Shown: positions 5,072 to 22,543 of the stretch, piece by piece
Position numbering within the stretch: position 1 is the first letter of the stretch
How the letters are laid out: each line of letters opens with the position of its first letter
DNA from: a virus
Virus record (IMG/VR): IMGVR_UViG_3300027800_000048
Coordinates: 1-23,674 of that record
DNA: 23,674 nt
Direction: 5' to 3' (one strand)
Made by a program: the position numbers and the translations under genes
Notes under the pieces: generated by a model
Told to the model about the DNA's origin: nothing
Seen by the model: the letters and a program-made list of their open reading frames with translations, nothing else
The model's database searches: none

Positions 5072-7657
5072 TTATTCAGTGACTAATCCATTAATAAAGT
5101 CAGTGTCATGTTCATAGAATCTAGCATCATAATTACTACAGTTAACACTATAGCTCTTATTTTCCTGCGGTGTAATTTCATTAACTAAGAAATTCTTAAT
5201 CTTATTATCTGTCTCTGCTACCAGATAATAAGTTGTTTTTGCATAAGCATCTTCAGCAGTAGATAATGGCAGAGCTGGAGCATGGGATAAAATGATAGTA
5301 TACTCACTATTACCTGGATTGCAACTTATATTTTCTACACTGCCGTCGCTAAGTTGTAAAAATATGCTGTAATCTACCCCAGTTTCAAATATTGTAGGTT
5401 GGGAAGTTGTTACTATAAGCCCATCCTGCGAAACAATCTCACCATCTTGCATATCAGGTCTTGTATTATCAGCTAATAATATGCGATGACCAGTAACAAG
5501 ATAGCCAGCCTCACTAGTAGCTGTAAATTCAACATCTACATTTTGGTAATTTATTTTATTATAAGCTCTCCAAGCGTGAAAGTGACTCTGCACTATATTT
5601 CTAACTCCAGGAATATCTAAAGTTTCTGGATTAATAGCGCTTCTATCTTCAGGTATATAATAGGAGGTTATAGCATCATCGGCTGGATCAGTATAAGTTA
5701 ATTCAACACCATCGCTATCTTTTCTAGGTCCAAAATATACTGTTCTAGCCTCTGTTCCAGGTAATTTATTCCTGTGGTTGAACAATAGGACACTGTCCTC
5801 AGTACTCCTCTCAAAATATAACTTAATTTTACTCGCCTGTCTGTATGCCCTACAAAATACAGCTTGAGCTATAGTAGCCAAAGTCTCTTCAAAACTTATA
5901 TTGACTTCAGAAAAAGTGTAGCAGAATTCGGCAGCTAGGGGGGTACCGAAATATTCAACTACCTCCTCTACGGTGGAATAGATCAGATCAAAATCTACCT
6001 CCGCTGGAGTGCGCCTCCCCATTCTAGGGTCTAGGCAGACTGCAGAAATAATGTCAGCAGCATTTCTGGTGCTATGAAGAGAGGATGAGAAGGTAGATCC
6101 AGAGATGCGTTGTGGGAGTTTTCTAGTTACAAGTAATTTTAACTTTCGTTCTTTAATACTCAAGGCACTCTGATTGACCACAGTCCTGGTAAGAACAGTA
6201 GTGATATCCCCGAAGTGTGGCTGCGTGACGGATTTAACAGACATCAAATCGCGGAATTGGATTTCGTCAACGACCACCCCATTGAAGTCGTAATCCTTGG
6301 GGGTGGTGCGCATCACCCTTACCTTGCAACGACCTGGAGTAATGAGAGCTGCCTTGACAGTTACACCTTTGACCTGATGGTCTGTCGATGACCCAATAAC
6401 GGTCCCCATGAAAGTTTCTAGTGCCCCAGCATTATCCCCGTCTCCATCTATCGGTTGCACTTCCATCTTGAACGACGCAGAGCGTGAGGTTTGGTTTGAC
6501 CCATCATCTGCATACATGCCTTGCGTAGCAACAACATTAGCATATACTGACTTGGTAGTGTTTGGCAAGGTATACCAATCTGTCCATCTATCCGCGGTAG
6601 TAGTTATCGTCGCTACGGCTGCGGTTGAGGTTCCTGAGGTTTCAAGACAATTCCATAAAGTATTCTCTGCTTCTGGGTTAACGAGAACAAGCGTGTTTGA
6701 GGTAACGGACAGCAGTTCATAAGTGCCGTCAAGATTGATCACACTTTCTGGGCATATTAGAGGAACGGGAGTAACATTGAGAAATGCCCCCTCAATGGTG
6801 ATCGCGTCACCATCTTCAAACTTATCAGTAAAATCTATACTAGAATCATTACAAAAAATCGTGTCTGGCCAAGTAAAAACAAGGGTATTCTTTGTATCGA
6901 CCCTGTTCTCATTTGGTGCTCTCAACACTTGCCCGTTGACAGACTCGGAACGGTCAATATCAAGCACAGGTTCAGCAATCGGATCACCAACCGTGTAAAA
7001 AGGCACTCCACTGTTTGGTGATGTGTTTGGGCCGTACACCTCAAGCCCTGCTCCTGAAATGTTATCTACTGGGGTTATCCCCTCTACAGCTTCATGTATT
7101 TCATACGCACCGACACCAACACACAGATAACTGATCTCGATTTCTCGATTACCTACAAAAATAGAGTAGGGGAGAGCAAGAAGGTCAGGCACGGACCATA
7201 CAGTACCATAAATTGAAGGTATTCTACCATTTAATCTTGGAGTATTAACTCGACCAGAAAGCACACCATTTGGTGACTGGACCTGTTGGTTACGTGTAGT
7301 TGGAGCGTTCGGCACACTAGGAGCTAGAATTTTAGACACTGCCATAGAAACCACCATAACGGCTAGGGCCTTTCCTATGACTAACCACGTCCCTGGGTCA
7401 GTCCCAGGATAAACTACTGCATAAAGCTGACCTTCCAATGACTGCAGTCTTTTAATACCTTCCTCTAATACCAAAACCCCTTCATGCCCTATAGGTGTAA
7501 CATCTCTACTTTCTGCTATTTGCTCATGATATATCCTAGCAGTCTCAGGTAAAACCTCATATCTCTCCTTCAAGCTAGCACAAATATCTTCAGTTTTAAT
7601 GTGCTCCCAAGTGCTTGGTTCCAAGACATTATCAATGAGAGTCAAGGTCTTCAACAT
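5072..7657 (-). CDS. Central tail hub / host-specificity protein, lambda J-like
   Basis: 861 residues, ATG 7657 with GAGG eight bases upstream, overlapping the peptidase stop by seven bases. Residues about 93-113 are strongly hydrophobic (VIGKALAVMVVSMAVSKI), as in the lambda I-type region, followed by SPNG...GRIPSIYGTVWSVPDLLALPY, a pattern typical of J-family hubs. The middle (about 470-720) has the DPRMGRRTP... and LATIAQAVFCRAYR... segments seen in tip-attachment proteins. The protein closes the distal tube, contacts the tape-measure end and carries receptor-binding parts. At 861 residues it is shorter than lambda J (about 1130) and lacks obvious fibronectin repeats at the C-terminus, so receptor binding may fall to the downstream spike. 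The I-like N-terminus suggests an I-J fusion. Confidence 0.8.
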   Translation of the reverse strand: MLKTLTLIDNVLEPSTWEHIKTEDICASLKERYEVLPETARIYHEQIAESRDVTPIGHEGVLVLEEGIKRLQSLEGQLYAVVYPGTDPGTWLVIGKALAVMVVSMAVSKILAPSVPNAPTTRNQQVQSPNGVLSGRVNTPRLNGRIPSIYGTVWSVPDLLALPYSIFVGNREIEISYLCVGVGAYEIHEAVEGITPVDNISGAGLEVYGPNTSPNSGVPFYTVGDPIAEPVLDIDRSESVNGQVLRAPNENRVDTKNTLVFTWPDTIFCNDSSIDFTDKFEDGDAITIEGAFLNVTPVPLICPESVINLDGTYELLSVTSNTLVLVNPEAENTLWNCLETSGTSTAAVATITTTADRWTDWYTLPNTTKSVYANVVATQGMYADDGSNQTSRSASFKMEVQPIDGDGDNAGALETFMGTVIGSSTDHQVKGVTVKAALITPGRCKVRVMRTTPKDYDFNGVVVDEIQFRDLMSVKSVTQPHFGDITTVLTRTVVNQSALSIKERKLKLLVTRKLPQRISGSTFSSSLHSTRNAADIISAVCLDPRMGRRTPAEVDFDLIYSTVEEVVEYFGTPLAAEFCYTFSEVNISFEETLATIAQAVFCRAYRQASKIKLYFERSTEDSVLLFNHRNKLPGTEARTVYFGPRKDSDGVELTYTDPADDAITSYYIPEDRSAINPETLDIPGVRNIVQSHFHAWRAYNKINYQNVDVEFTATSEAGYLVTGHRILLADNTRPDMQDGEIVSQDGLIVTTSQPTIFETGVDYSIFLQLSDGSVENISCNPGNSEYTIILSHAPALPLSTAEDAYAKTTYYLVAETDNKIKNFLVNEITPQENKSYSVNCSNYDARFYEHDTDFINGLVTE

Positions 7658-12854: not shown

Positions 12855-13595
12855 TTCTGTTTGCTTCTTGTTCTTCTTGTTGTAAAGATATTACTTTAGA
12901 AGCGAGAAATCTTACTTTCTCATAAAACTCAACTCGCTCCTCCTGGCCAATTTCAAAGTAATCCATACCTTTGTCTACAGCTAAAAAGTTTATGGCAAAG
13001 GCCCCGCCACTTCCAACTAAATACTGATCTGAGCAGAATGAATACAATCTTTGAAAAGGTAGATTGCATTCTAGGGTAGGAGGACGACAACTGCTGCATG
13101 GAGGTTCTGTTTCATAAAGTTTATTAGTCTTAATACAAACTTCACAAGATGTCCTTCCTACCCCAGAGTAAAATTCTGCCCAGAGTTCTAGTTTTTTGTT
13201 GCCTCGTCCTCCCCAACAATCTCATCAGTCAAGGCTTTTCTAAAGGTATCAATCCACATAGAGAAAGTTTTATCTCCATCTCCAAGCACTGGATCTTCGT
13301 CAAGATACAGATTAATATTCTTGCGATTACACTCAATGACTTCATCATCAAACCCACGGAAACCCTTCCAACCAACAACAGATGCTGCACGAACTGCCCG
13401 TTGCTGAAGAGTGGGATTGAACTTCAACTCAGTTGTGAAAGAGTCTTCGCCATTAGCTTTACCAACCCAGTCAGTAAACTCAGACTCAATCTTCTGAATC
13501 TCCCCAGGTTTAAGGTGCTTAATTTTGAGTTCGGCCTTGTCAGGGTCGCCGGGAATAGGAAAGGTACGGATAATTACACTTGTTAATTTAGGCAT
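12838..13595 (-). CDS. Tail assembly chaperone GT, made by -1 frameshift
   Basis: The upstream ORF (135 codons) ends AAA-AAC-TAG on the heptamer A AAA AAC (13197-13191). Slipping one base back, the ribosome continues at 13191 with LELWAEFYSG and stays open to a TAA at 12838, adding 117 residues for about 252 in total. The extension contains C-x2-C-x12-C-x2-C (fusion residues about 151, 154, 167, 170), a likely zinc knuckle, followed by a helix ending ASQK. Position before the tape measure, sizes and -1 direction match lambda G/GT, in which T recruits the tube protein and G coats the tape measure. The extension has no strong start of its own; its only early start codon is a TTG at 13047. Confidence 0.82.
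13188..13595 (-). CDS. Tail assembly chaperone G
   Basis: 135 residues, ATG 13595 with GAGGAA about five to six bases upstream. An N-terminal beta region (MPKLTSVIIRTFPIPG) is followed by helical, charged sequence (HLKPGEIQKIESEF...). It stands between major tail protein and tape measure, the place of lambda G, and ends precisely on the slippery codons. It is the zero-frame product and should be in excess over GT; it would bind the tape measure to keep it soluble during tail assembly. Identification is by position, size and the frameshift arrangement rather than by strong sequence recall. Confidence 0.85.
   Translation of the reverse strand: MPKLTSVIIRTFPIPGDPDKAELKIKHLKPGEIQKIESEFTDWVGKANGEDSFTTELKFNPTLQQRAVRAASVVGWKGFRGFDDEVIECNRKNINLYLDEDPVLGDGDKTFSMWIDTFRKALTDEIVGEDEATKN
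13191..13212 (-). promoter_or_regulatory. Programmed -1 frameshift signal: SD-like stimulator plus A AAA AAC
   Basis: The minus strand reads GGAGG (13212-13208, within GGGGAGGA), ten bases, then A AAA AAC (13197-13191) in the correct X XXY YYZ phase, directly followed by TAG in the zero frame. Internal Shine-Dalgarno elements about 10 bases upstream of a slippery site stimulate -1 frameshifting in bacteria (as in dnaX). No strong downstream stem is evident by eye. Confidence 0.8.
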
Positions 13596-13609
13596 TTTGA
13601 TTCCTCATA

Positions 13610-13697
13610 GTCTTGGTGGTTTAGTTTAACTTCTGAAAAATGACCCTCCGCAGCTTGCCAATATCCACCAAGACAAGGGCAACGCTTTGGAGGGTCA
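13610..13697 (-). other. Interleaved inverted repeats (pseudoknot-type leader) before the chaperone gene
   Basis: Two perfect inverted repeats interlock. Pair A is GTCTTGGTGG (13610-13619) with CCACCAAGAC (13665-13674); pair B is TGACCCTCC (13641-13649) with GGAGGGTCA (13689-13697). In the transcript the loop of stem B can pair over ten bases with a segment six bases before the chaperone Shine-Dalgarno. This A-B-A'-B' order is that of a pseudoknot or of mutually exclusive terminator and leader structures. The pairing is seen directly; the function is inferred. Confidence 0.6.
13636..13697 (-). terminator. Rho-independent-type terminator after the major tail protein
   Basis: Minus strand: a nine-base GC-rich stem TGACCCTCC/GGAGGGTCA, an inner TTGCC/GGCAA stem and a long loop, followed directly by TTTTT (13640-13636). 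It starts about a dozen bases after the MTP stop codon. It would end or attenuate the highly expressed tube transcript; some read-through is needed to express the chaperones unless another promoter exists. Confidence 0.7.
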
Positions 13698-17299: not shown

Positions 17300-17338
17300 T
17301 TAACCCAACTGTCAAGGGTTACTTGACAGTTGGGTTAA
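17300..17338 (-). repeat. 17-bp-arm hairpin after the major capsid gene
   Basis: Perfect arms TTAACCCAACTGTCAAG (17300-17316) and its complement (17322-17338) with a five-base loop, beginning ten bases after the capsid stop codon. This is a very stable stem, but without a U-tract on either strand it does not fit a classic intrinsic terminator. It may stabilise the capsid messenger 3' end or slow polymerase. Both arms contain CTTGACA/TGTCAAG. The rest of the 128-base gap (17220-17299) has a further TTGACT without a convincing -10. Confidence 0.65.
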
Positions 17339-22057: not shown

Positions 22058-22497
22058 TATCGTCTAGCTTTTGCTACTTCGTTGACAATTTTAATTAAGT
22101 CTTTAATGACAACAACTCTTTGACTTTCTGGGATTTTTTCTATATTTATTAATTCTTTTATTTTTTCCTTGACAATAATTATTAATAAATTAAAGGCAGC
22201 TTTATCTGAATTTTTTAGATTCAGTTCCTTTGTCTTGTCCTTGACAATCGCATCAACTGTGTTTAGGAGAGCTGCATCATCCATCTCAGTGTCATTGAGG
22301 TTAGAGAGTAGTACACTAGATACAATGTTTGCAGGCTCAACAGCAACAGGGTAACTGTCAAAGGCTAAAGAAATGGACAATCTGAGGGTAGCTTCTTCGA
22401 CAGGGTCAACAACACCATTACCAATTGTATTTGGCTTGGAGGTAGAGCAGGCTGACAGCAGAAGCAAAAGTAGGGGTATAATGAGGATCGACTTCAT
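22057..22497 (-). CDS. Outer-membrane-type lipoprotein, unidentified (moron-like)
   Basis: 146 residues, ATG 22497 with AAGGA six bases upstream. A signal peptide (MKSILIIPLLLLLLSAC) ends in a lipobox L-S-A-C with the lipidated cysteine at 17; the +2 serine predicts outer-membrane sorting in Gram-negatives. The mature part is a helical Lys/Ile/Leu/Glu-rich protein (IVKDKTKELNLKNSDKAAF...). A lipoprotein between terminase and portal is not a virion part in known phages. Phage lipoproteins known elsewhere block superinfection (T5 Llp, TP-J34 Ltp) or act as o-spanins. With its own promoter and dyad, a host-altering role is plausible. It is coupled to the portal by TAATG. Confidence 0.75.
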   Translation of the reverse strand: MKSILIIPLLLLLLSACSTSKPNTIGNGVVDPVEEATLRLSISLAFDSYPVAVEPANIVSSVLLSNLNDTEMDDAALLNTVDAIVKDKTKELNLKNSDKAAFNLLIIIVKEKIKELINIEKIPESQRVVVIKDLIKIVNEVAKARR

Positions 22498-22543
22498 AGT
22501 TTATCCTTGACTAATAGAGTAATTTAGTCAAGGATAAACTATG
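22495..22543. repeat. Perfect 20-bp inverted repeat at the lipoprotein promoter and start codon
   Basis: Arms 22495-22514 and 22524-22543 are exact complements (CATAGTTTATCCTTGACTAA and its reverse) around a nine-base spacer. One arm covers the -10 element of the lipoprotein promoter, the other its Shine-Dalgarno and ATG. It can be a dyad operator for a dimeric repressor or, in a longer transcript, a hairpin hiding the ribosome site. No repressor gene is visible in the window. Confidence 0.65.

Follow-up and report, generated by a model that had tools for sequence, protein, structure and literature searches.

An element that is probably a genuine RNA control element, of putative function, lies between the tail tube gene and the tail assembly chaperone gene of an unclassified phage. 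Three features can be read directly from the letters: a terminator-like hairpin, complementarity between its loop and the leader of the next gene, and a layout that recurs with unrelated letters in two relatives. From these we infer termination efficiency, pairing in the cell and an effect on translation. The best explanation, to which we assign a probability of about one half, is a terminator (stem B) combined with a pseudoknot in the read-through leader that controls chaperone initiation, possibly together with mRNA protection.

The window, that is the whole stretch of 23,674 nucleotides analysed here (an IMG/VR fragment), matches a section of a 79.7-kb viral contig letter for letter from end to end. 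Its structural genes are encoded on the minus strand in the order portal, protease, major capsid protein, tail completion genes, tube, chaperone and tape measure (Table 1). The name 'tube' is putative and comes from gene order and synteny only. A domain search gave no Pfam match for this protein, a profile search of solved structures (PDB) gave nothing useful for the call, and the structure prediction was poor (pLDDT 39) and of no help to identity. The chaperone call is backed by a weak PHROG 313 match and a -1 frameshift site, after which the reading frame is extended by about 120 codons in a gpGT-like arrangement. The A AAA AAC heptamer also occurs at an equal distance from the chaperone stop in the relatives L031 (16076) and L032 (12516) and is lacking in L014.

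Table 1. Genes and RNA features at the tube-chaperone junction (window coordinates)
Feature	Position	Strand	Basis or remark
Putative tail tube (major tail) protein gene, 255 aa	13710..14477	-	stop codon 13712-13710; between putative tail-terminator gene and chaperone
Terminator stem B, 5' arm UGACCCUCC	13689..13697	-	begins 12 nt past tube stop codon
Inner stem, 5' side (GC G UUGCC)	13678..13685	-	MFE fold
A, apical-loop segment GUCUUGGUGG, 5' pseudoknot partner	13665..13674	-	complementarity to A'
Inner stem, 3' side (GGCAA GC)	13653..13659	-	MFE fold
Terminator stem B, 3' arm GGAGGGUCA	13641..13649	-	inverted repeat
Terminator U-tract UUUUU	13636..13640	-	sequence and fold
A' CCACCAAGAC, 3' pseudoknot partner, predicted only in read-through RNA	13610..13619	-	complementarity to A
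Chaperone Shine-Dalgarno GAGGA	13602..13606	-	sequence
Tail assembly chaperone gene (gpG-like), 135 aa	13188..13595	-	PHROG 313 tail assembly chaperone, E=3e-4; orthologues in L014, L032
Slippery heptamer A AAA AAC	13191..13197	-	directly before chaperone UAG; -1 frame continues to about 12838

In the RNA sense the UAA stop of the tube gene is followed by 12 nt, the 5' arm of B, AAAGCG, UUGCC, CUU and segment A, and then by AUAUU, GGCAA, GCUGC, the 3' arm of B (B') and UUUUU. After 16 further nucleotides come A', UAU, the Shine-Dalgarno (SD) sequence, AUCAAA and the AUG (ATG at 13595), so that the linker from stem B to A' is 21 nt. An earlier note on this DNA had described two perfect inverted repeats of 10 and 9 bp interleaved as A-B-A'-B', and both are found exactly where it placed them, with A and A' complementary at 10 of 10 positions and the arms of B at 9 of 9. 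An inner stem that it had not described (UUGCC 13682-13678 with GGCAA 13659-13655, plus GC/GC) places A in an apical loop of 18 nt. The leader hairpin is strongly predicted (-39.5 kcal/mol, z -3.0). The suggestion that stem B and its TTTTT form an intrinsic terminator is supported by nine base pairs, six of them GC, leading directly into UUUUU; judged by its sequence, stem B is a terminator of the ordinary kind in a conserved position. The U-tract also has an alternative pairing with the SD region (AUUUUUCA, 13641-13634, with UGAGGAAU, 13607-13600).

The interleaved repeats are the sole pair of their kind (at least 9 and at least 9 perfect base pairs within 110 nt) anywhere in the 79.7-kb genome. 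Dinucleotide-shuffled genomes of 80 kb contain 0.18 such pairs on average, with one pair in 10 of 60, so a genome-wide search alone would not call the window repeats significant. Given terminator B, none of 6000 dinucleotide-shuffled leaders equals the loop-leader match of the window. The statistic used in these shuffle tests is an opening cost, which replaced one confined to the apical loop of the MFE fold; the latter missed the focal sites because weak pairs occupy the loop. Taken alone, the repeats of the window are modest evidence, and their recurrence in relatives is the deciding evidence.

Protein searches found only two relatives in which an orthologous tube gene is followed directly by the chaperone gene: L014 (tube 63% and chaperone 42% identical to the window) and L032 (39% and 34%). 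In the capsid-protein tree L032 lies far from the window (path of 1.8 changes per column). In the phage collection neither a DNA search for close homologues nor tblastn with the tube and chaperone proteins gave a match, no relatives were found in genome contigs, and a plasmid search with the L032 tube gave no relative. The evidence base is three phages, none close enough for base-by-base covariation. L031, the phage nearest to L032, carries a third tube orthologue (33% identical); there, inserted reverse-strand genes of about 1.1 kb separate tube from chaperone, and the element is not kept. The chaperone gene beyond this insertion has a promoter-like TTGTCA-17-TACTAT of its own (L031 15640-15700) and a GGCGGUU/AACCGCC hairpin whose loop AUGGUG is a candidate to pair with CACCAU beside the start codon.

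The L014 terminator is CGCCGCCCC...GGGGCGGUG-UUUUU, and its apical loop ACCGUGGGGGCC is complementary to the downstream GGCCCCCAAGGU at 11 of 12 positions. In L032 the terminator is UGUUGCC...GGCAACA-UUUUUU, and the loop AGCGGUG pairs with CACCGCU located 10 nt 3' of the stem. Both relatives have 7-8 consecutive loop-leader pairs of a sequence unrelated to the window, and no loop or leader sequence is common to the three phages. The layout is kept: the stem begins 12, 10 and 13 nt past the tube stop in the window, L014 and L032, and the hairpin measures 57, 56 and 52 nt. As few as 46 of 6000 shuffled leaders reach the match of L014 (p 0.008) and 26 of 6000 that of L032 (p 0.004). In a 3x3 cross-matrix each hairpin matches only its own leader, foreign leaders giving weak values. 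A hairpin loop complementary to a strand outside it is present in all three phages, and pairing is kept while sequence changes, as topology in three unrelated sequences rather than as covariation in a base-by-base alignment. The pseudoknot proposed earlier gains from this, since an identical topology made of wholly different letters is seen in both relatives that allow the check, which is of the compensatory-change type. A and A' would most likely form a selected pseudoknot or kissing loop, present only in read-through RNA.

Other hairpins and other phages served as controls. The seven lowest p values of 111 strong terminator-like hairpins in these genomes include those of all three focal sites; the remaining four belong to hairpins elsewhere than the tube-chaperone junction. 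Phages of the Vibrio SHOU24 and 264E42 types, the Pseudomonas phages PMBT3, UAntarctica and Lana, and L033 and L035-L037 carry compact hairpins at this position, in the main with U-runs and short loops, next to a tube gene not recognisably related to that of the window. Where the terminator scan picked up hairpins in those phages, none had loop-leader pairing beyond chance. By these controls, the pseudoknot goes with this tube-gene family and the terminator with the whole group. In PMBT3 (L021 10558-10640) and UAntarctica (L023 14096-14176) the hairpin is enclosed by an outer helix that occludes the SD of the chaperone gene; the arms of this helix are UCCUUGGGG/UCCCAAGGA and UAACUCC/GGAGUUA, and the changes between them are apparently compensatory.

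The simplest alternative is a plain intrinsic terminator whose loop matches the leader by coincidence and to no purpose. Junction terminators lacking such pairing are common in the group, shuffled genomes yield interleaved repeats at the rate given above, and there are only two replicates. Against this, both relatives in which orthologous tube and chaperone genes directly adjoin have the match, and Fisher's combination of the two, with the discovery window left out, gives about 4e-4. A coincidence of this kind is rather unlikely, at perhaps one chance in five.

The fold energies bear on how the two repeats relate. Pseudoknot energies were obtained by adding stacking and a fixed Dirks-Pierce-type penalty of 9.6 kcal/mol to the energy of the nested fold. 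On this scale the knotted form of the window reaches -40.1 to -41.3 kcal/mol against -39.5 for the nested form (a gain of 0.6-1.8), that of L014 reaches -56.5 against -53.2 (a gain of up to 3.3), and that of L032, where the linker that has to run back along the hairpin is 10 nt long, is slightly less stable than the nested form (-30.0 against -31.4). In the window and in L032 the U-tract may pair with the purines of the SD, which would leave A' in a second loop and give a kissing arrangement. The earlier note had also considered a switch that links read-through with translation. Taken as two mutually exclusive states, such a switch would set A-A' in competition with B and so govern read-through. 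There is a formal competition between A-A' and parts of the hairpin. However, A' is transcribed beyond the U-tract, is absent when the decision is made and cannot influence termination at B. Moreover, forcing A-A' without B in the window costs stability (-32.3 against -39.5 kcal/mol), the direction is the same in L014 and L032, and B is predicted to be favoured over A-A' by 4.5-9.6 kcal/mol in all three phages. A termination switch is thus highly improbable, the least likely of the readings considered.

The loop was further said to pair with the segment just before the chaperone SD. This holds in the window and in L032, where A' adjoins the SD, and fails in L014, where A' ends well upstream; the distances from A' to the ATG are 14, 18 and 50 nt across the three phages, the last being that of L014. 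The predicted exposure of the SD changes with the knot from 0.20 to 0.40 in the window and from 0.53 to 0.38 in L032 and is unchanged in L014. The change differs in sign between phages, and no direction of the effect is favoured. Eight other leaders were scored by nested folding. In five of them (L019, L020, L021, L023 and L024) no gene in the comparison has a less accessible SD than the chaperone gene; this is not so in L022, L025 and L033, nor in the three pseudoknot phages. These models suggest that structure may restrain the chaperone start in several phages of the group, and not in the three pseudoknot phages by the nested-fold measure. In L014 a second leader structure stands beside the pseudoknot: base-pairing of GCCAUCGA with UCGAUGGC at 5182-5219 spans the start codon of the chaperone gene and leaves the SD in the loop.

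The variable spacing between A' and the ATG would be expected if the SD were not the target, as when the pseudoknot is mainly an RNA-stability device that blocks 3'-to-5' exonucleases arriving from the downstream gene and stabilises the tube message with no action on chaperone translation. The position of the hairpin, 10-13 nt past the tube stop in three of three phages, agrees with such a role; the terminator hairpin by itself already protects, which argues against it, and we consider it about as improbable as a coincidental match. A pseudoknot that serves as a translational operator, a candidate site at which a tail protein (tube or chaperone) would repress chaperone synthesis by analogy with gp32 in T-even phages, is very doubtful. 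A knotted leader here precedes a gene for an assembly protein required in defined amounts, and the structure goes together with a single tube-protein family, but the three elements have no sequence motif in common.

Further hairpins occur at other minus-strand genes of the window. At 22495-22543 a hairpin with a 9-nt loop has 20 perfect base pairs, or 24 bp if mismatches are included; its 3' arm contains both the Shine-Dalgarno (AAGGA) and the AUG of a gene for a putative lipoprotein of 146 aa (22497-22057), and its 5' arm is overlapped by a promoter-like TTGACA-17-TATCCT. This looks like masking of a start site. A near-perfect palindrome of 22-23 bp at 2520-2565, whose 3' arm has AGGGA and reaches the AUG of a 126-aa gene (2521-2141), is the second case of this start-masking layout in the genome. 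At 17300-17338 a perfect 17-bp hairpin with a 5-nt loop lies about 10 nt past the stop of the major capsid gene and has no U-tract.

According to the preferred reading, terminator plus read-through pseudoknot, stem B would terminate the majority of tube-gene transcripts, like the terminators found at this junction in most relatives, and tube mRNA would exceed chaperone mRNA. In the RNA that escapes, the apical loop of the terminator would pair with the chaperone leader and form an H-type pseudoknot. The folded leader would then set, upward or downward, the efficiency with which ribosomes start on the chaperone gene, and may in addition protect the tube message on its 3' side. Against this reading stand the small sample of three phages, the fold energy and short linker of L032, the distance of A' from the SD in L014, the mixed signs of the predicted SD exposure and the loss of the element in L031. 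Siphophage tails contain many tube subunits and require fewer assembly chaperones, made from adjacent genes, and it is plausible that the element sets the ratio of tube to chaperone. If so, this ratio would be set or fine-tuned by a terminator hairpin that acts again in RNA escaping termination. A more tentative proposal, which we hold to be possible and less probable than the preferred reading, is a recurring sequence-free device in which a terminator provides half of a pseudoknot over the next leader and so marks read-through RNA for altered chaperone translation or decay; such a mark could be sensed by a tail protein and tune tail assembly. A small element kept by topology rather than by sequence would be invisible to sequence-based RNA family searches.

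Rfam gave no credible match at E<=5 in the window stretch, where one chance microRNA match of 15 bits falls in the tube gene, and none at the gathering score in L014 and L032. No paper with such an arrangement was found in the open-access literature, in line with the earlier note, which knew of none here. Terminators and leader pseudoknots are both known; a terminator loop that knots into the leader of the next gene, and that persists as topology while its sequence does not, seems to be a new form of these. Like phage intrinsic (Rho-independent) terminators, the element has a GC-rich stem and U-tract right after a highly expressed structural gene; it differs in its unusually long two-part hairpin, with an apical loop of 11-18 nt that matches the downstream leader. 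The leader of gene 32 in T-even phages likewise carries a pseudoknot upstream of the ribosome site. There the product of the gene itself nucleates on the knot, and no terminator forms part of it, whereas the knot proposed here includes one; no sequence relation is claimed. In the S15 and alpha operon leaders an H-type pseudoknot near the SD controls initiation. These are bacterial genes with a known protein ligand, and their pseudoknots are not terminators; the present knot, likewise of H type and near an SD, would be terminator-derived and belong to a phage gene. The nearest parallel in gene position is offered by the long SD-hiding hairpins of PMBT3, UAntarctica and the SHOU24 type, which also fold the chaperone leader. 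They do so through nested helices that enclose or follow the terminator, whereas here the loop itself pairs with the leader.
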